A stretch of 64,000 nucleotides of DNA from Gammaproteobacteria bacterium (lineage in GTDB: Bacteria; Pseudomonadota; Gammaproteobacteria; JAABTG01). Numbering within the stretch: position 1 is the stretch's first letter; each line of letters begins with the position of its first letter. The stretch covers positions 1-64,000 of the forward strand of contig JAGNLM010000003.1 in NCBI GenBank assembly GCA_017999615.1, read 5' to 3'. Below, piece by piece: positions 39,974 to 53,093 of this stretch. The position numbers and the translations under genes are program-made. The notes under the pieces are model-generated. The model did not search any database and was not told the DNA's origin. It saw only the letters and a program-made list of their open reading frames with translations.

Positions 39974-40375
39974 TCAGTTTCGGGAGGCGAAGTAGGCTGC
40001 GATGTCGGCGAAGTCCTGGTGGCTGCCCCTGGCAAACCGCTGCATGGTCTGGCTGGGGCGGCTGCCGTCCTTGAAGGCCTTCAGCGCCCCGATGATCTTC
40101 TCTTCGCCGAGGTTTCCGATCCGCGGGTTGCCGGACCTGCCCTCGCCCTTCTCTCCGTGACAGGCGATGCAGGCGGTCGCCTTCTGCTTGCCGGCGGCGG
40201 GGTCTCCCGCCGCGTGGGCGGCGGGGCTGAGCGTCGCCAGCCCGAGGACTGCCACCCCGAGGACTCTCAGCCTGAGCAGCGCCATCCCGGCGGCGGTGAT
40301 GGTGGTGGTGATGGTGGCGGAGGCCGTCGCGGTCGCGGTGGCGGGGGCGGCGGTGGCGATCCGGTGTGCCTTCAT
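39974..40375 (-). CDS. Small c-type cytochrome (cytochrome c553-like)
   Basis: A 133-aa periplasmic electron carrier. The haem-binding motif 'CIACHGEKGEG' follows 'DPAAGKQKATA'; the distal Met is in 'SRPSQTMQRFA'. Signal peptide core is 'LLRLRVLGVAVLGLATL', cleaved after 'AHA'. The first 30 residues are a Thr/Ala repeat encoded by GGT-type tandem trinucleotides. The ATG at 40375 is preferred because GGAGGAAGGAAGG adjoins it; an ATG at 40285 would remove the repeat. It is the last gene of the five-gene minus-strand operon. Confidence 0.85.
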   Translation of the reverse strand: MKAHRIATAAPATATATASATITTTITAAGMALLRLRVLGVAVLGLATLSPAAHAAGDPAAGKQKATACIACHGEKGEGRSGNPRIGNLGEEKIIGALKAFKDGSRPSQTMQRFARGSHQDFADIAAYFASRN

Positions 40376-40389
40376 CCTTCCTTCCTCCC

Positions 40390-41304
40390 TCACTCGAACT
40401 CTTCGGACTCCTCCGCGGAATAGAAGAGAACGCGCTCCTCGCTCCCCATCTTCCCGGGGGTGCAGTGCAGGAGGTGCTCCTGCCCGCTCGCGCGCGCGGC
40501 CCGCGCCCTCTCCTCCAGCTCCTCCAGCTTGCGCACCACGCCCTGCTCGCGCAGGAGCGTCTTGATCTCGGCGAAGAGGGGCTCGCTGCCGTAGAGCAGC
40601 GTGCCTTCGTGGAGGATCTTGCAGGCGACCATGCGCTTGAAGTCGTCGAATCGCAACTGCTCGCGCACGCGCGACATCTTCTTCACGACGTAGTCGATCT
40701 CCTCCCGCACCGAGGGGGTCACGAGCGCCCTGTACTTGTGCCGGTAGATGGCCTCGTCGAGGCGCCTCACGAGCTCGTCCGGAACGTCGTCCGTCGCGAT
40801 CGCCACGAGGTCGATGTCGGAGCCGTGGACGAGCTCCCCGGTGCTGCGCTCCGGGCGCGGGACCCGGTGCGCCATGCGATAGACGATGTCGCCGGCAAGG
40901 ATGACGCAGACCCGTTCCTCCGGCCAGGAATCCCCCAGCTCCCTGCGGATGCCGTCGACGAAATGGCGAGCGAGCTCTTCCTTCTGCCGGCTCGTCTCGT
41001 CGATGCGCGAGGTGACCTCCCGCGCCCGCTCCTCGAGGGGCTCGGGGTCGCCCGAGAGCCCGATGACCGAGTAGGTGAGGAACTCCCTCAGGATGGAGGG
41101 CGAGAGACGGGCGTAGCCCTCCACCTGCCGGTCGAGCCGCAGGTAGCGCCGGCCCAGCGTCCTCGTTTCCAGCGCCGGCGAGGTGCGGCACGCCTGCCAG
41201 AGGGCGAGCGGACTCTCGCCCCGCAGGTGGTCGCGGATCTCGATCCCCGTGAGGGGGCCCGCGGTGCGGACGAGCTCTGCGACGGCCCTCTCGAGCGGGC
41301 TCAA
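40390..41304 (-). CDS. Nucleotidyltransferase-like protein, 304 aa
   Basis: The middle of the protein has 'VHGSDIDLVAIATDD', the GS-x10-DxD-type signature of the nucleotidyltransferase fold (here Gly-Ser then Asp-Ile-Asp). An N-terminal winged-helix-like region ('LTGIEIRDHLRGESPLALWQ') precedes it and a helical C-terminus follows ('RFDDFKRMVACKILHEGT'). Specific family not recognised; an adenylyltransferase modifying protein or RNA is possible. Its ATG overlaps the nagB-like stop (ATGA), so it is co-translated with that gene; cytochrome c follows 14 bp after its stop. Confidence 0.6.
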   Translation of the reverse strand: MSPLERAVAELVRTAGPLTGIEIRDHLRGESPLALWQACRTSPALETRTLGRRYLRLDRQVEGYARLSPSILREFLTYSVIGLSGDPEPLEERAREVTSRIDETSRQKEELARHFVDGIRRELGDSWPEERVCVILAGDIVYRMAHRVPRPERSTGELVHGSDIDLVAIATDDVPDELVRRLDEAIYRHKYRALVTPSVREEIDYVVKKMSRVREQLRFDDFKRMVACKILHEGTLLYGSEPLFAEIKTLLREQGVVRKLEELEERARAARASGQEHLLHCTPGKMGSEERVLFYSAEESEEFE

Positions 41305-42269
41305 GGAACGAGGGAGAACTCGACGCCCCGGGCCTCGAGGGCGGACCGGGAGGCGAGCAGGTCCCGGGCGGCGACCCGGTCGAGGACGTAGAAGAGGTGG
41401 CCGCCGCGGGCCGAGTAGATCTGGCCGTAGGAGATGGGCACCTCGGGGGTCGGCTCGCCGAGGAGCGACCGGGCGATGGGCTCGACCTTGCGCTCCCCGT
41501 TCGCCAGGAGCACGACGGCCCGGGCCCGGTACACCAGCTCGGCGCCCATGCTGACGGCGTAGCGCGGGCTCTCCTCGACCGCGGCGAAGTGGCCGTCGGC
41601 CACCGCGTTGGCCACTGTGTTGTCGTCGAGCTTCACCAGCATCACCTGGCTGCCCTCGAAGGGGATCCCCGACTCGTGGAAGGCCACGTGTCCGCGCCCC
41701 CCGACGCCGATGATCTGCAGGTCAATGCCCCCGGCGCGCTCGATCTTGCGGGCGTAGGCCTCCAGGACCTCCCTGCGGACCCACGCCAGGTACTCCGAGG
41801 AGGCGTCGGCCTGGATGACGATCGACCGGCCGGCGTCGGCGCCGTCCTCCCGCCAGTCGCCCGGATGCGCCGCGAGCTCCTCGACGAGGCGCTCCTGATC
41901 GATGAGGCAGCCGTAGGGGACGCTCGTCTCGATGAACTTGCGCTCCAGGCGGCTGAAGAACTGCTCGATCATGAACGTGCAGTAGCTCTCCCGATGCAGC
42001 ACCCGCTGCTGGGCGTTCTCGCCGGGCAGACCCACATACTCGTCGAGGTTGAAGCTGCGGATCCGGCGGCTGTCGAGCTCCCCGGCGTTGGCCGCCTGGG
42101 CCAGGTGCCGGTAGACGCCGGTCGGGGAGTTGCCAGTCGCGAGGCCCAGCACCATCTCGCGCTTCTGGCCGAGGGTGCGGTTGACGTGGTCCTCGACCAG
42201 GTCCGCACCCACCCTGCTCATGTGCTCGAAGTCGTGGGTGACGAGGATCTTGATGGGCATCGGTTTCAT
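41301..42269 (-). CDS. nagB: NagB-like glucosamine-6-phosphate deaminase with altered active site
   Basis: A 322-aa member of the NagB/SIS-like family: 'GLATGNSPTGVYRHL' (phosphate loop), 'SFNLDEYVGLPGENAQ' (catalytic Asp equivalent to Asp72) and 'GVGGRGHVAFHESG'. In E. coli NagB the last motif is GxGxDGHIAFNE, with Asp141, His143 and Glu148 acting in ring opening; here Asp141 is replaced by Arg, while His and Glu remain. The protein is also longer than NagB (about 266 aa). It may be a deaminase with a changed mechanism or a sugar-phosphate isomerase-like paralogue. Operon with glmM. Confidence 0.75.
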   Translation of the reverse strand: MKPMPIKILVTHDFEHMSRVGADLVEDHVNRTLGQKREMVLGLATGNSPTGVYRHLAQAANAGELDSRRIRSFNLDEYVGLPGENAQQRVLHRESYCTFMIEQFFSRLERKFIETSVPYGCLIDQERLVEELAAHPGDWREDGADAGRSIVIQADASSEYLAWVRREVLEAYARKIERAGGIDLQIIGVGGRGHVAFHESGIPFEGSQVMLVKLDDNTVANAVADGHFAAVEESPRYAVSMGAELVYRARAVVLLANGERKVEPIARSLLGEPTPEVPISYGQIYSARGGHLFYVLDRVAARDLLASRSALEARGVEFSLVP

Positions 42270-42309
42270 CCTGTGTGGTAGGGCGTGGGGGCGCTCGGCG
42301 AGCGGGGCG

Positions 42310-43659
42310 TCAGCCGAGGGCCTTCCTCAGCACGTCGGCGATGGTGGTGCAGTACTTCTCGGTGAGCTCCACGCTCGGTCCCTCGACCATGACGCGGCAC
42401 ATGTTCTGGGTGCCCGAATAACGGACCAGCACACGCCCTTCGTCCTGGAGCTGAGATTCGACCTGGCGGATGACCTCGGCCACCTCCGGCACGGTGGCGA
42501 GGTCCGGCTTGCGGCTGACGTCCACGTTGATGAGTTTCTGGGGGTAGACGTCCATCTGCGCCGCGAGCTCGGAGAGGGGTTTGCCCGCCCGGATCATCGC
42601 CGAGAGGAGCTGCAGCGCGGTGAGGATGCCGTCGCCGGTGGTGTGGTGGTCGAGGAAGATCATGTGCCCCGACTCCTCGCCGCCCAGCACGCTGCCCAGG
42701 CGCTGCATGTCCTCGAGCACGTAGCGGTCGCCCACCTTCGACGCGTGGTGCTTGAACCCGTACTTGCGGCACGCGACGCGCAGCCCCATGTTGCTCATCA
42801 CGGTGCTGACCACGAGGTCGTTCTTCAGGCGGCCCTGCTCCTTCAGCATCCGGGCGCAGGCGAGCAGGATCTGATCGCCGGTGATCTCGTGTCCCTTCTC
42901 GTCCACCGCGATCAGGCGGTCTCCGTCGCCGTCGAACGCGAGTCCCACCGCGGCGCCCGTCTCCACCACGCGCTTGCGCAGGTCCGCGGTGTGCTGGGAG
43001 CCGCAGTTGTCGTTGATGTTGAGCCCGTTCGGGTTGTTGTGGATCGTCTCGACCTTCGCGCCGAGCTCCCAGAAGAGCTCTGGCGCGACCTTGTAGGTGG
43101 CCCCGTTCGCGGTGTCCAGGACGACCTTGACCCCTTCCAGGGAGAGGTCCCGGGGGAAGGTGTTCTTCAGGAAGACGATGTAGCGCCCGTGCATGTCGTG
43201 CAGGCGGAACGCCTGGCCCATCTCGGCCACGCCCGGCACCAGCTTCGGCAGCTGTCCGCCCAGGACGAGGTTCTCGATGACGCCCTCGAGGTCGTCGGAC
43301 AGCTTGTAACCCCCACCGCCGAAGATCTTGATGCCGTTGTCCTGGAAGGGGTTGTGGGAGGCGGAGATGACGATGCCGGCGTCGGCCCGCATGCTGAAGG
43401 TCGCGAAGGCGATGCCCGGCGTCGGCAGTACACCGACCAGATAGGGGTCGCCGCCCATCGACGTGATGCCCGCCTCGAGCGAGCTCTCCAGCATGTAGCC
43501 GGAGATGCGCGTGTCCTTGCCGATGATCACGCGCGTGCGGTGATCGCCCTTGCGGAGCACGTGGGTGATCGCCTGGCCGACGGAGAAGGCGACGGCGCTG
43601 TCCATCGGGTAGCGGTTGGCCTCGCCCCGAATGCCGTCGGTGCCGAACAATTTGCCCAT
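42310..43659 (-). CDS. glmM: Phosphoglucosamine mutase GlmM
   Basis: Converts glucosamine-6-P to glucosamine-1-P for UDP-GlcNAc. The 449-aa product starts 'MGKLFGTDGIRGEAN' and carries the phosphoserine loop 'GIVISASHNPFQDNGIKIF', the metal loop 'LAFDGDGDRLIAVD' (DGDGDR), the sugar-binding 'GGEESGHMIF' and the phosphate-binding 'VRYSGTQNMCRVMVEG'. All four sites are intact. The ATG has GAGGAG 7 nt upstream. It sits between the hexapeptide-repeat gene (34 bp away) and the NagB-like gene (40 bp away). Confidence 0.94.
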   Translation of the reverse strand: MGKLFGTDGIRGEANRYPMDSAVAFSVGQAITHVLRKGDHRTRVIIGKDTRISGYMLESSLEAGITSMGGDPYLVGVLPTPGIAFATFSMRADAGIVISASHNPFQDNGIKIFGGGGYKLSDDLEGVIENLVLGGQLPKLVPGVAEMGQAFRLHDMHGRYIVFLKNTFPRDLSLEGVKVVLDTANGATYKVAPELFWELGAKVETIHNNPNGLNINDNCGSQHTADLRKRVVETGAAVGLAFDGDGDRLIAVDEKGHEITGDQILLACARMLKEQGRLKNDLVVSTVMSNMGLRVACRKYGFKHHASKVGDRYVLEDMQRLGSVLGGEESGHMIFLDHHTTGDGILTALQLLSAMIRAGKPLSELAAQMDVYPQKLINVDVSRKPDLATVPEVAEVIRQVESQLQDEGRVLVRYSGTQNMCRVMVEGPSVELTEKYCTTIADVLRKALG

Positions 43660-43693
43660 GGAGCTCTCCTCAGGTTGAGTGGTGCCCGACGCC

Positions 43694-44947
43694 TCAGTCG
43701 CGGGCCGCGTCGAGCGCCGGCACCTGGGAGGCCAGGAGCGCGGTGACGTCGGCGACGATCTGGTCGAGCCAGCGGGTGCCGTCCTGCACGACGTCCGCCG
43801 GCAGGTGCTGGATGGTCTCGAGATAGCCCTGGCCCTTCGCCCGGTGGGCCTGCAAGCCCGCGAGGAACCGGTCGCGCTCGCGCTCACCGGCCTGGCGCGC
43901 GGTGCCCGCGGCCAGCAGCTCGCGCAGGCGGCCCGCGCCCTCGCGCAGCTCGCGCCGGCCCGGTGCCTCGGTGCCCGGGTCGGCGGGGACGGGGAGCTTT
44001 CCGGCCAGGTCCTCGATTCGCTTGCAGCGCTCGGCGGTGGCCATCGAGAGCTTCTCGATGGCGCCCTGGAAGACCAGCGGGCCGAGCTCCTGCTCCGCGA
44101 AGAAGGGCTGGCGCACGTGCCGGTACCACTGCTCGAGCGCCGCCAGGTTGGCGAGGTAGAGGAAGTTGTTGCGCACGATGCGCGAGAGTCGCGGGTAGGC
44201 GTGCGGCGAAAACGGCGTGACCTTGCCCGGGTGCCGGTCGGGGACGACCAGCAGGCCCTCGCCGAGGACGTCCTTGCGCAGCACGCCCCCGGCCGCGACG
44301 ATGTTGCCGAAGCCGATCCGCAGCGGGCCGACCATGCCTCCCTGGCCGCCGAGGAAGATGGGCGGCTGGCTCAGCATCACGCCGCGCGGAACGTCGCCCA
44401 CCAGCGAGGCGGTGGTCTTGTCGCCGTCGGGCGTGAAATTGAAGTGGACGTAGGAGCTGCCCACCTCGCTGTGGTTCTTGCGGCTGGTCCCCCCCGCCAT
44501 CAGGCAGTCGCAGAAGTTGATGAGGCTGCCGAGCGTGACGAAGGGGAAGAGGATGGTCTGCTTGAGGCCCACGCAGTGGGCGCCGCCGGCCTCTTCCTCG
44601 AGGATGCACGCCTCGCGCACCTGAGCGCCGAGGCCGAGGTTCGATTGTTGGAGAAAAACCGACTTGCTAAAGTACCCGCCCTTGAGCTGAGCCCGGGGCC
44701 CGAGCTGGCAGTCCTCGATCGTCACGGGGCCTTCGCGCCCGATCTGCGCACCCGCCGAGATGACCGTCTTTGCGCCGTATATCCGGCATCCCGGGTGGAT
44801 GGTGACCCCGTTCCCCGAAATCCGCTCCACGTCCACCTCGTCACCGATGTCGACGGTGAGGGGATTGGGGAGGCTCACGCCCTTGAGGAGCAGACGGCGT
44901 ATCTTGTCCTGCAGTGCCGGCCTGAGTTCCACTTCTCTCGTCTCCAT
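43694..44947 (-). CDS. Left-handed beta-helix (hexapeptide-repeat) protein, UDP-GlcNAc-pathway-like
   Basis: A 417-aa protein with a hexapeptide-repeat beta-helix (~residues 30-250): 'GVTIHPGCRIYGAKTVISAGAQIG', 'GPVTIEDCQLGPRAQLKGGY' and 'VFLQQSNLGLGAQV'. It resembles the acetyltransferase half of GlmU. A C-terminal helical region without known motifs follows. Position as first gene before glmM suggests a GlcN-1-P acetyltransferase or a scaffold in the UDP-GlcNAc route; a pyrophosphorylase domain is not present. No good Shine-Dalgarno before the ATG at 44947. It is divergent from the YvcK-like gene. Confidence 0.65.
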   Translation of the reverse strand: METREVELRPALQDKIRRLLLKGVSLPNPLTVDIGDEVDVERISGNGVTIHPGCRIYGAKTVISAGAQIGREGPVTIEDCQLGPRAQLKGGYFSKSVFLQQSNLGLGAQVREACILEEEAGGAHCVGLKQTILFPFVTLGSLINFCDCLMAGGTSRKNHSEVGSSYVHFNFTPDGDKTTASLVGDVPRGVMLSQPPIFLGGQGGMVGPLRIGFGNIVAAGGVLRKDVLGEGLLVVPDRHPGKVTPFSPHAYPRLSRIVRNNFLYLANLAALEQWYRHVRQPFFAEQELGPLVFQGAIEKLSMATAERCKRIEDLAGKLPVPADPGTEAPGRRELREGAGRLRELLAAGTARQAGERERDRFLAGLQAHRAKGQGYLETIQHLPADVVQDGTRWLDQIVADVTALLASQVPALDAARD

Positions 44948-45059
44948 GGGTAACCGAAAAAAGTAGGTGACGCCCCCGGGTGATGTCAACGTCGCACGGG
45001 CGGCTGGAGGCTGCCGCGGGTTAGCGACAGGGCGCGCCGCGCCATTGAGGGCACCGGAC

Positions 45060-47285
45060 ATGACGTTCCTTACGGAGCAGCTGGTCGAGGCGGTTCTCCT
45101 GAGCGGGACGCCCGGGGTGGTGCTCCCCGAGCGTCTGCGCGCCCTCGTGCGCGGGGTGCTGGACTTCGACTGCAATCCCGTCCGGGTGGTCGTCCTCGGC
45201 GGAGGCACCGGCCTGTCGACGGTCGTGGGGGGGAATTCACGCCTGGCGGGATGGCCGGCCAACCCGAACCTGGGGCTGAAGCAGGTCTTCCCGAACCTCG
45301 ACGTGGTCGTCTGCACGACCGACGACGGCGGGGCCACCGGCGAGCTCTTGAAGCAGCTCCCGATGATCGGGATCGGCGACCTGCGCAAGCTCTGCCTGTC
45401 CATGGTCGAGCCCGGGAACCTCCGGCGGCGCTACGGCCTCGACGGCGGCCGCGCCCAGGCCCTGGTCCGGGTCCTCCACAGCGTGTTCAACCACCGCTTT
45501 CCCCGGGAGGGGGCGAGTGCCGGCGAGGCCGAGGACCCCCTGCTCGCGGCCCCGGCGCCCTTGCGTGACGCGTGCCCCGAGCCGCTGAGGGACCTCCTGC
45601 GCGCGGTGGGCCGGTTCGTGACGCCCGGCGGGGGCGGCCCCGCGGTGGAGGTGGGAGGGCAATGCCTCGGCAACCTGCTCCTCACCTCGGCGATCTTCGC
45701 CGAGACGGGCGGGGAGTTTCGCAGCCCGCCGGCGATGGCGGCCATCCGCAGGGGGATCGACCGGATCGCGGACGCCATCGGCGCGCGCCCGGGCAGGCTT
45801 CACCCGGCGACGGCGGCGCCCGGACAGCTCGTGTTCCGTTACGCGAACGGGGTGGAGCTTCACGGGCAGAGCAAGTCGGCCACCTCGCGCCGCGGTGTCG
45901 CCGTGGACCGCGTGTACCCGGAGTTCTACGGCGTTCCCGAGGTGCCGGCCGAGGTCCTGCGGATGGTGCGCGAGGCGGACCTGATCCTGCTCGCCCCGGG
46001 CAGCCTGTACACGAGCAGCATCCCCACGCTGCAGGTGCCGGGCATCGCCCAGGCGATCCGGGAGAACCGCACGGCGCTCAAGGTCCTCGGCGCTAACCTC
46101 TGGGTGGAGGAAGGGGAGACCGACATCGCGCACGAGGACCGGGGGAGGGGCTTCCGGGTCTCCGAGATCCTGGACGCCTACGAGCGCAACGTGCCCGGCG
46201 GCCGGTCGGGGCTCTTCGATGTGGTGCTCGCCGCCAATCTGCAGCACCTCTCCGGGGACGTGTTGAGGAACTACGCGCTCGAGGGGAAGAAGCCCATCTA
46301 TCTCGACCGCCGGACCGTCGAGGCGATGGGCGTGGAGGCCGTCGAGTCGACCATCTTCTCCGTGGAGCACGGACGGGAGTCCGGCTTCATCCACCACGAG
46401 CCGAAGAAGTTCGCCCTGGCGATCCGGGCCCTGCTGTTCGCGCGCGAGCACGGGCGGCTGGGAGGGCAGCCGGGCGGGCAGCCGGGCGGGCATCTGGGCG
46501 GGCGGGTGGGGGCCGCGGGGCCCACGGGGGAGTCGCCGGCCGAGGGACACCGCAGGGGCGCGCAGCCGCTCTGCGGCTACTGGGCGGACATCACGGGCAC
46601 CCTCGGCCGCAAGCGCTTCCAGCCGGAGCGTCTTCGCGACGTCGTGCGCGACATTGCCTGGCGGAACCGGGACATCCAGACGGGCCACTTCGACCTGATG
46701 GAGGGTGCGCGGGTCGTGCCGGCGGGGGAGTGGAAGCGGAACACGGAGTGGGACTCCGTGCTGGGCTACTACGATCCCGAGGACCGCTGCATCCGGGTCC
46801 ACGAGCAGGTGTTGGACGACCCCGACCGGTTGCAGGGAAACCTGCTGGTCGCACTGGGGGAGTCACTGCTCGGACGCTACGTCGAAGAGCGGAGCTGGGT
46901 CCATCTCGACGGCGCGCACGGCTGGGGCGCGCGCCGCTACGAGGTCCGGCTGCTCCCGCCCGGGGAGCGCGAGTGCCTCCTCAGCGACGCGCGGCTCCAC
47001 GAATACCTGACCCTGGCCCGGATGGTGCCCCATCCCGGGGACCCGGGCCGCTACGGCATCACGCTGAACGACGGAGAGGGCTTCCTGCCGCCCGGCCTCC
47101 TGTTCGGGCTGATGTACGCCTGGTACCTCGACAACTCGTGCGCGGCCATCATGGAGAACGAGATGGCCATCCTGCACTGGCCGGAGGCGACGCTCATCCC
47201 CTCCCAGGCCCACGAGTACCGGCGCAAGAAGGCGCTGGTGGCTTTCTTCCGGGACGCGGTGTTCGGCAACGAAGGCTATGCTTGA
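45060..47285 (+). CDS. YvcK/CofD-like protein with a large C-terminal extension
   Basis: A 741-aa protein. Residues ~40-465 match the YvcK/CofD family: 'RVVVLGGGTGLSTVVGG', 'VVCTTDDGGATGELL', 'IGDLRKLCLSMV' and 'LILLAPGSLYTSSIPTLQV'. YvcK proteins bind UDP-GlcNAc and influence cell-wall and gluconeogenic metabolism. After a Gly-rich linker (LGGQPGGQPGG, ~465-500) comes an unrecognised domain of about 240 residues with 'CGYWADITGTLGRKRF' and 'SWVHLDGAHGWGARRYEV'. The ATG has GAGGG 8 nt upstream. It faces the glmM operon, consistent with a UDP-GlcNAc role. Confidence 0.8.
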   Translation: MTFLTEQLVEAVLLSGTPGVVLPERLRALVRGVLDFDCNPVRVVVLGGGTGLSTVVGGNSRLAGWPANPNLGLKQVFPNLDVVVCTTDDGGATGELLKQLPMIGIGDLRKLCLSMVEPGNLRRRYGLDGGRAQALVRVLHSVFNHRFPREGASAGEAEDPLLAAPAPLRDACPEPLRDLLRAVGRFVTPGGGGPAVEVGGQCLGNLLLTSAIFAETGGEFRSPPAMAAIRRGIDRIADAIGARPGRLHPATAAPGQLVFRYANGVELHGQSKSATSRRGVAVDRVYPEFYGVPEVPAEVLRMVREADLILLAPGSLYTSSIPTLQVPGIAQAIRENRTALKVLGANLWVEEGETDIAHEDRGRGFRVSEILDAYERNVPGGRSGLFDVVLAANLQHLSGDVLRNYALEGKKPIYLDRRTVEAMGVEAVESTIFSVEHGRESGFIHHEPKKFALAIRALLFAREHGRLGGQPGGQPGGHLGGRVGAAGPTGESPAEGHRRGAQPLCGYWADITGTLGRKRFQPERLRDVVRDIAWRNRDIQTGHFDLMEGARVVPAGEWKRNTEWDSVLGYYDPEDRCIRVHEQVLDDPDRLQGNLLVALGESLLGRYVEERSWVHLDGAHGWGARRYEVRLLPPGERECLLSDARLHEYLTLARMVPHPGDPGRYGITLNDGEGFLPPGLLFGLMYAWYLDNSCAAIMENEMAILHWPEATLIPSQAHEYRRKKALVAFFRDAVFGNEGYA

Positions 47286-50682: not shown

Positions 50683-50861
50683 GGTGTCTTCCTCCATTCC
50701 GAGCGTTCTTGGTCTGTCGCGACGTCCGCGGCGAGTATCCGCGATCGACCCTTCGCAAGCCAGCGTGGCAGCGGACCCGGAATGCCGCGGGCCGCGCGGG
50801 ACCATCGGCCCGGACTTTGCTACCATGGCGCGCGAGACTTCGCGTCCCAGCGCCAGGATTC

Positions 50862-53093
50862 ATGAAGAACGTACTGCGTTTCGTCCTTCCTCTGCTCGTC
50901 GTTCTCGGCGTGCTCGCGCTGGTGGCGAGCATGCTTGCCGAGCGCCTGGCCATGCGTTGGGCGCTGCGCGATCTGGAGGCTCGCGATCACCTCATCGTGA
51001 ACACGCTGGCGACGAGTCTCGCACCGCTGCTCGTGGCGGAAGTGGAGCCCGCGGTGATCCGTACCGTGATGAGCCGCGCGACACGCGACGCGCGGCTGAT
51101 GGCGGTCGGGCTCTGCGGACCCGATGGCGCGGTGCGGATTGGCACCGAGCTCCTGCCGCGCGGGATGGACTGCCGGAACGCTCCGCGGCCCGGGGCCTCC
51201 AGGCGCGCGCTCGTGGAGCTCGACGCGGGCCCCGCGCACGTGATGGCGTTTCCCCTCGACCCGCAGCACCCGGAGCAGGCGGGCCTCATCCTGGTCCACG
51301 ACCTCAGCTATCTCACGAAACGGATCGAGGACGCGCACGGTTACGTCTTCCTGTTCTTCACCGTGCTGACGGGCCTCGTCTCGGTGGTGACGGTGGTGAT
51401 CGCACGCGTCAGCCTGCGCCGCTGGGTGAGCGCGGTGCGTGCGGCCATGACCCAGGTGGGAACGTCAGCGAGCGAGGCGCCCGCCGCGCCCGGTGAGATC
51501 CAGCCGATCCTGCAGGAGGTGCGCACGCTCGTGCGGGAGTTGAAAGGGGGTGTGCGCGAGCGTGACGACTCTCTGGTGAGGTGGGACCCGTCGGTGCTGC
51601 GGGAGGTGATCGATCGCGAGCTCGCCGGGGACGAGGTCATCGCGGTCTCCAATCGCGAGCCCTACATCCATGTGCGCGGAAAGGACGGCACCGTCGAGGT
51701 CCGGTTCCCCGCGAGCGGTCTGGTGAGCGCGCTCGACCCCGTGATGCGGGCCTGCGGGGGAACCTGGGTCGCCCACGGCAGCGGCGACGCGGACCGCGAG
51801 GCCGCCGACGAGCACGCGCGGGTGCGCGTGCCCCCCCAGGACCCCGCGTACACGCTGCGCCGGGTCTGGCTGAGCGCGAAGGAAGAGCAGGGCTACTACT
51901 ACGGCTTCGCCAACGAGGGGTTGTGGCCGCTCTGTCACCTCGCGCACGCGCGCCCGCAGTTTCGCAGCGAGGATTGGGAACAGTACCAGCGCGTGAATCG
52001 CCGCTTCGCGGACGCCGTGGTCGAGGAGTCGCGCAGCGACGACCCCATCGTGCTCGTGCAGGACTATCACTTCGCGCTGCTGCCGCGAATGATCCAGGAG
52101 CGGCTCCCGGCGTCGACCGTCATCACGTTCTGGCACATCCCCTGGCCGAACCCCGAGGCCTTCGCGATCTGCCCGTGGCGGGAGGAGATCCTCGAGGGCC
52201 TTCTGGGGAGCACGATCCTCGGTTTCCACACTCGTTTTCACTGCAACAACTTCATCGACACGGTGGACCGAACAGTCGAATCCCGCATCGACCGGGAATA
52301 CTCCAACATCTCGTACCGGGGGCGAACCACTCTCGTTCAGCACTACCCCATCTCGGTGGAGTGCCCCTCGCGCTGGCTGCAGGGACAGCCCTCGGTGCCC
52401 GAAGCACGCGTGCGGGTGCGGAACGCGAATGCCATGGCGAAGGACGTGCGCCTCGGCGTCGGCGTGGACCGTCTCGATTACACGAAGGGGATCGTGGAGC
52501 GTCTGCGGGCCGTGGAGCGGCTCCTGGACACCCACCCCGAGTGGGTCGGGCGCTTCTCCTTCGTGCAGATCGCGGCGCCAAGCCGCTCGGACATCGAGCG
52601 TTACCGCCGCTTCTCGGAGGAGGTCAGCGCGGTCGCCGGCGCCATCAACGAGCGCTTCGCGCGGCCCGGTTACGCCCCCGTGCACCTGCGGGTCGCGCAC
52701 CACTCCCCGCCCGAGGTGTTCGAGTATTATCGCGGCGCGGACCTCTGCTTCGTGAGCAGCCTGCACGACGGCATGAACCTGGTCGCCAAGGAGTTCGTGG
52801 CGGCGCGCGACGACGAGCAGGGCGTACTGCTGCTCAGCCTGTTCACCGGGGCCTCACGCGAGCTCCCCGAGGCGCTGGTCGTGAACCCCTACGACACGGA
52901 CGAGTGCGCGCGAGCGCTCCATCGGGCGCTCGTGATGACGCCCGAGGAGCAGCGCAGCCGCATGCGGCGCATGCGGGGGTACGTGCGCGAGTACAACATC
53001 TACCGCTGGGCGGGTCGCATGCTGATGGACGCCGCTCGGATCCGCGCGCGCAACCGGCTCCTCGTGCGCTTGCCCGAGCTCTCCGCCGAGTAG
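50862..53093 (+). CDS. otsA: Trehalose-6-phosphate synthase with an N-terminal membrane sensor-like region
   Basis: A 743-aa fusion. Residues 1-250 have two membrane helices (~5-25 and ~165-190) flanking a ~135-aa periplasmic domain, followed by a HAMP-like coiled linker. Residues ~250-743 are a GT20 glycosyltransferase: '[15 protein letters not shown]', '[16 protein letters not shown]', '[17 protein letters not shown]' and '[19 protein letters not shown]', with UDP-glucose and Glc-6-P contacts conserved. It makes trehalose-6-P, which the next gene product dephosphorylates. Typical OtsA has only the GT20 part, so membrane attachment suggests regulation by an external signal. Confidence 0.9.

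Follow-up and report, generated by a model that had tools for sequence, protein, structure and literature searches.

Bacteria cannot do without the synthesis of UDP-GlcNAc, a cell-wall sugar precursor; the enzyme GlmU, a target for drugs, is, to our knowledge, treated as near-universal among them. A survey has reported that GlmU, or its acetyltransferase half alone, is missing in various genomes, which absence was read as an incomplete or lost pathway or was left open (PMC7725333). The window analyzed here—a stretch of 64,000 nucleotides from a gammaproteobacterial genome—carries a cluster of genes suggestive of amino-sugar metabolism, and the question that this locus raises is whether those genes form, as the original prediction held, a dedicated route or control circuit for UDP-GlcNAc.

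Gene order at the locus and in relatives

All the genes named in that prediction were found in the window where it had placed them. On the minus strand, a left-handed beta-helix protein of 417 aa (LBH; 43694-44947) is followed by glmM (449 aa; 42310-43659) and then by a NagB-like gene (41301-42269). The nucleotidyltransferase-like gene after that (40390-41304) has a GSDxD motif and matches no family in Pfam or NCBIfam, and last comes the gene of a small cytochrome c (39974-40375; PF00034). Between neighbors there are 15-40 bases or an overlap, which amounts to 4 bases for the NagB-like and nucleotidyltransferase-like genes, so that co-transcription is likely. Divergent from LBH, on the plus strand, lies a long YvcK/CofD-like gene (45060-47285; PF01933, 154 bits), whose probable start is the ATG at 45060. 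The 112 bases between the two (44948-45059) presumably contain the promoter or promoters of the divergent genes; no sigma-70 consensus was found in that interval, nor did searches around the locus reveal RNA elements (Rfam) or consensus promoters.

A scan of the whole collection with the LBH core retrieved at least 533 relatives, most of the genomes compared being metagenome-assembled (MAGs). The best 80 of these, being 69-95% identical to that core over 155 residues, come mostly from Deltaproteobacteria, together with some bins labelled Nitrospirae, Actinobacteria, Chloroflexi, and Aminicenantes; and their loci, whenever enough sequence was available, furnished the following counts. The glmM gene lies directly 3' of LBH in 72 of 74 usable loci, at a median gap of 43 bases; a NagB-like gene then follows in 43 of 63, and a nucleotidyltransferase-like gene is found downstream in 26 of 58. 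The gene order is thus not unique to the source genome. The long YvcK-like gene, whose divergence from the operon the prediction had emphasized, does have that arrangement in the source genome, but elsewhere is close upstream of LBH—either divergent or in the same direction—in a minority of the loci (9/55). As to the cytochrome c, which was supposed to complete the operon, no homologue occurs in any relative's cassette locus, and we accordingly discarded that gene as a member.

Among 369 gammaproteobacterial genomes, LBH was detected in the source genome only, the weaker matches being GlmU. In the same genus one other carrier is known, an uncultured Ectothiorhodospiraceae MAG in 220 contigs (G001), and a search of plasmids for LBH returned just a distant GlmU. 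Since LBH is absent from the other sampled members of the class while the operon is kept across phyla, the latter was apparently acquired as a block; and, to judge from these sequence comparisons, the operon is most likely a part of the UDP-GlcNAc pathway that moves horizontally between genomes.

Some of the relatives' loci display additional features. Upstream of LBH and in the same direction, L124 (5786-9553) encodes a GlmS-like protein about 1250 residues long, consisting of glutamine amidotransferase and SIS regions along with large extra regions, with similar genes of that size in L129, L134-L137, L141, L148, L158, L160, and L166. Two LBH paralogues per genome were observed in L114 (4271-5536 and 9617-10879), where they flank a GlmS-like gene, as well as in G390 and G401.

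The beta-helix protein and the enzymes encoded beside it

LBH matches no Pfam family. Its best profile is that of GlmU (TIGR01173, E 5e-13), the match being confined to positions 235-435, so that the N-terminal uridyltransferase domain of GlmU is lacking. In a profile-profile alignment (hhalign), residues 13-230 of LBH aligned on GlmU 241-434 with a probability of 99.1% (E 4.6e-19), and the best high-probability Foldseek matches of the predicted structure were GlmU structures (0.99-1.00); both comparisons identify the C-terminal left-handed beta-helix acetyltransferase domain of GlmU. Over residues 120-242, the conserved core, the AlphaFold model is of too low a quality for catalytic residues to be placed, and the active-site positions were taken from the profile alignment. 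There, R111, K129, H159, and N170, all four invariant in 50 LBH sequences, are the equivalents of GlmU R333, K351, H363, and N386, of which R333, K351, and N386 are residues that we take to have a structural role in the acetyltransferase active site. For S. aureus GlmU, H362 has been described as a key catalytic residue (PMC11947611). The equivalents of GlmU E349, Y366, and N377 are replaced in LBH, according to the same alignment in a core region that is hard to align, which replacements suggest a site related to that of GlmU but altered.

LBH and GlmU thus have some 190 residues of left-handed beta-helix domain in common, whereas LBH is without the uridyltransferase domain, contains an 18-residue insert (the FPFVTLGSLINFCDCLMAG region), bears a helical C-terminal extension of 170 residues, and is encoded almost always next to glmM. 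The LBH core is, furthermore, unusually conserved, at about 70-78% identity across phyla. Apparently stand-alone C-terminal acetyltransferase domains of GlmU itself, constituting a naturally split GlmU, were observed in G429 (L270:3440-4090) and G466 (L271:3241-3843). In those, as in LBH, the acetyltransferase is a separate polypeptide; but the split domains show about 50% identity with E. coli GlmU, whereas LBH, at 25% identity in the profile alignment, represents a separate and distant family.

The source GlmM surpasses the TIGR01455 cut-off (582 bits versus 448), contains the SASHNP active-site motif, and has a median identity of 75% to the GlmMs of other cassettes versus 47% to that of E. 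coli, which figures mark it as a cassette-specific phosphoglucosamine mutase. The NagB-like protein, for its part, exceeds the PF01182 cut-off, with the match interrupted for some 60 residues, but remains below that of the NagB equivalog (133 versus 237 bits). In comparison with NagB deaminase the fold is the same and the equivalents of D72, H143, E148, and K208 are kept, whereas the stretch of some 60 residues is an insert, and the positions of E. coli D141 and R172 are occupied by Arg and His, both of which are conserved across the group. The catalytic triad D141/H143/E148 is therefore incomplete. With two NagB active-site residues missing, the label of a normal deaminase is doubtful; the protein might act as a deaminase in modified form, or else regulate glucosamine-6-phosphate. 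That the NagB-like and nucleotidyltransferase-like proteins might control flux at glucosamine-6-phosphate is a guess.

GlmU and its acetyltransferase half in genomes with and without the cassette

The source genome, outside the window, encodes a GlmU of 342 residues versus about 456 at full length, which protein ends just before the acetyltransferase active site and, on inspection, has intact uridyltransferase motifs. The gene occupies the standard place between atpC and glmS, about 125 bases from the latter; a frameshift or sequencing error was ruled out as the origin of the truncation because the interval before glmS is too short to hold the missing 110 residues. The glmS gene itself encodes a full GlmS (842 bits), which excludes for the source genome a missing GlmS replaced by a NagB acting in reverse. 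In a survey of 115 near-complete gammaproteobacterial genomes, all of the other 110 having a GlmU above the family cut-off retained the C-terminal domain, G003 included; and the genomes of the same family that are devoid of the cassette (G002-G004) possess a full-length GlmU. In the congeneric carrier, G001, no GlmU match was found except LBH itself. In another gammaproteobacterial MAG, G005, neither a canonical GlmU nor LBH was found, which absence may be an assembly gap.

Among 50 cassette genomes, 41 lack the GlmU C-terminal domain—their GlmU ending near 320-358 or near 240, having as its sole counterpart a divergent protein some 275 residues long, or not being found—and the remaining 9 have a GlmU extending past position 400. 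In an evenly drawn sample of 148 Desulfobacterota, of which 28 have LBH, the C-terminal domain is present in 4/28 genomes with LBH versus 75/120 without (odds ratio 0.1; Fisher p 4e-6, a test that ignores shared ancestry). A tree of the GlmU N-terminal domain comprising 111 rows requires at least 19 changes in the C-terminal domain and about 20 in LBH; the independent pairs in which both traits differ amount to about 3.5 in the expected direction versus about 0.2 in the opposite one, numbers too few for significance. A full GlmU is kept in 11 of the 51 LBH genomes of the tree set. The complementarity between LBH and the acetyltransferase half of GlmU is, then, loose.

Conversely, GlmU is truncated or divergent in 35 LBH-negative Desulfobacterota, in which a profile search finds no LBH. 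A further acetyltransferase must accordingly exist there; LBH does not explain every GlmU truncation, and such truncation alone is no proof of a role for LBH. In three loci (L091, L092, and L103) glmS and a truncated glmU adjoin the LBH-glmM pair, divergently, and in the truncated GlmUs of L178, L180, and L181 a short C-terminal end is kept while the active-site middle is lost.

Along with those genes, we observed GlmUs truncated at about 240 or 330 residues in Desulfobacterota genomes without LBH (G462, G551, G542, G563, G470, G498, G520, and G431; L258-L265), three of which truncated genes sit in the atp operon. In genomes without a canonical GlmU, L246-L257 encode a divergent uridyltransferase, GlmU-like and about 275 residues long, with no beta-helix domain; one of these proteins, when scored against the NCBIfam GlmU models, reached 109-120 bits, far below the cut-off.

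A proposed route to UDP-GlcNAc and its alternatives

We lean toward the reading that LBH is a stand-alone glucosamine-1-phosphate acetyltransferase, inherited together with its own phosphoglucosamine mutase: an acetyltransferase because of the homology to GlmU 241-434 and the invariant equivalents of R333, K351, H363, and N386, and one acting in the UDP-GlcNAc route because of the neighboring glmM, the cassette type of that GlmM, the truncated GlmU of the source genome, and the association in Desulfobacterota. The enzymatic reaction, its substrate, and the replacement of GlmU by LBH we infer from these comparisons. GlmS would provide glucosamine-6-phosphate, which the cassette GlmM would convert to glucosamine-1-phosphate, and LBH would acetylate that intermediate with acetyl-CoA. 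A uridyltransferase would then form UDP-GlcNAc, which enzyme would usually be a GlmU reduced to its N-terminal domain, but sometimes the divergent protein of about 275 residues or, possibly, the YvcK-like protein. With LBH present, the acetyltransferase half of GlmU would be free to decay, as in the source genome. The operon is in this respect a concrete candidate for the missing acetyltransferase in hundreds of genomes; in the literature searched, with subscription papers outside its scope, no description was found of an LBH-type stand-alone acetyltransferase or of the operon. Of the original prediction, the dedicated UDP-GlcNAc route is consequently upheld by the gene order, the cassette GlmM, the adjacency of glmU and glmS in three relatives, and the loss of the acetyltransferase half, whereas the sensor or control circuit that it proposed is a conjecture.

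A broader scenario, possible though in our estimate well short of probable, would have the mobile operon carry a class of glucosamine-1-phosphate acetyltransferase that had no name before, along with a mutase dedicated to it—plus, in some lineages, a YvcK-type uridyltransferase—and displace GlmU stepwise: both being present at the outset, the acetyltransferase half then being lost, as in the source genome, and GlmU finally being gone, as in G001.

If, alternatively, LBH used another amino-sugar phosphate or acyl donor, the operon might feed a specialized glycan, such as an unusual lipid A or a capsule sugar, and the GlmU truncations would have been compensated by another route. Several GlmU substrate-binding positions are indeed changed in LBH, a full GlmU is retained in some LBH genomes, and the 35 LBH-negative genomes indicate that truncation has another solution. 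Nevertheless, the near-obligate GlmM partner (72/74), the glmS and truncated glmU adjoining the cassette in three loci, the retention of all four active-site equivalents, and a core whose identity across phyla befits a core metabolite rather than a variable surface sugar render that possibility unlikely.

The remaining alternatives depend on the YvcK-like protein, which comprises a CofD-fold N-terminal part and a C-terminal domain of about 260 aa that matches no family, and which falls below the cut-off of the YvcK model TIGR01826 (118 versus 196 bits). The C-terminal domain (46500-47282) has a well-predicted fold (model pLDDT 86) with a weak resemblance to small zinc metallopeptidases (zincin-like), the zinc motif being absent and GESLLGRY standing in its place. 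A membership in the CofD family of the GAK system was ruled out, the match being weak and partial. GlmR/YvcK of B. subtilis is a UDP-GlcNAc-binding regulator of GlmS (PMC7525490, PMC6171935); Listeria GlmR makes UDP-GlcNAc from GlcNAc-1-P and UTP, for which activity D40, D41, and N198 are needed (PMC10128056). The CofD-like fold and the candidate catalytic Asp-Asp and Asn are common to those proteins and the YvcK-like one, the residues having been mapped by motif only; the fused C-terminal domain is absent from GlmR. The TTDDGG and LGAN motifs are conserved in the long YvcK-like proteins examined, except that L109 has no match to the TTDDGG pattern. Outside the source genus, 10 of about 68 LBH genomes carry the long gene, and none of 12 LBH-negative genomes tested has it. 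A necessary partner of LBH is thereby ruled out; the protein might serve as an accessory uridyltransferase, or regulate in the manner of GlmR.

One could propose, in keeping with the B. subtilis precedent, that the YvcK-like protein acts as a UDP-GlcNAc-binding sensor which, jointly with LBH and the NagB-like protein, governs the flux through GlmM or GlmS, LBH and the NagB-like protein being non-catalytic. The loss of D141 and R172 and the likeness of the YvcK-like C-terminal domain to a degenerate enzyme fold would agree with such a circuit; but the scarcity of the YvcK-like gene, both near LBH and among the LBH genomes, the invariance of catalytic-site positions that a mere scaffold would not need, and the uridyltransferase activity reported for the Listeria homologue itself make it quite improbable, and the link with the loss of the GlmU acetyltransferase half would be left unexplained. 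We likewise give little credence to the YvcK-like protein as the uridyltransferase of a complete GlmU-independent pathway, through which the whole GlmU could be dispensed with. The Listeria activity, the matching Asp pair and Asn, the possession by G001 of the YvcK-like gene with no GlmU match apart from LBH, and six YvcK-like genomes without a canonical GlmU all speak for that possibility; yet those six carry the divergent 275-aa GlmU-like uridyltransferase, two other YvcK-like genomes keep a full GlmU, G001 is a MAG of 220 contigs, and most LBH genomes have no YvcK-like gene. The stand-alone acetyltransferase therefore continues to be the reading that we prefer.

Elsewhere in the window, at 50709-53093, is a trehalose-6-phosphate synthase gene (GT20), whose product is unusual in being extended by about 300 residues at the N terminus; a phosphatase-like gene comes after it.
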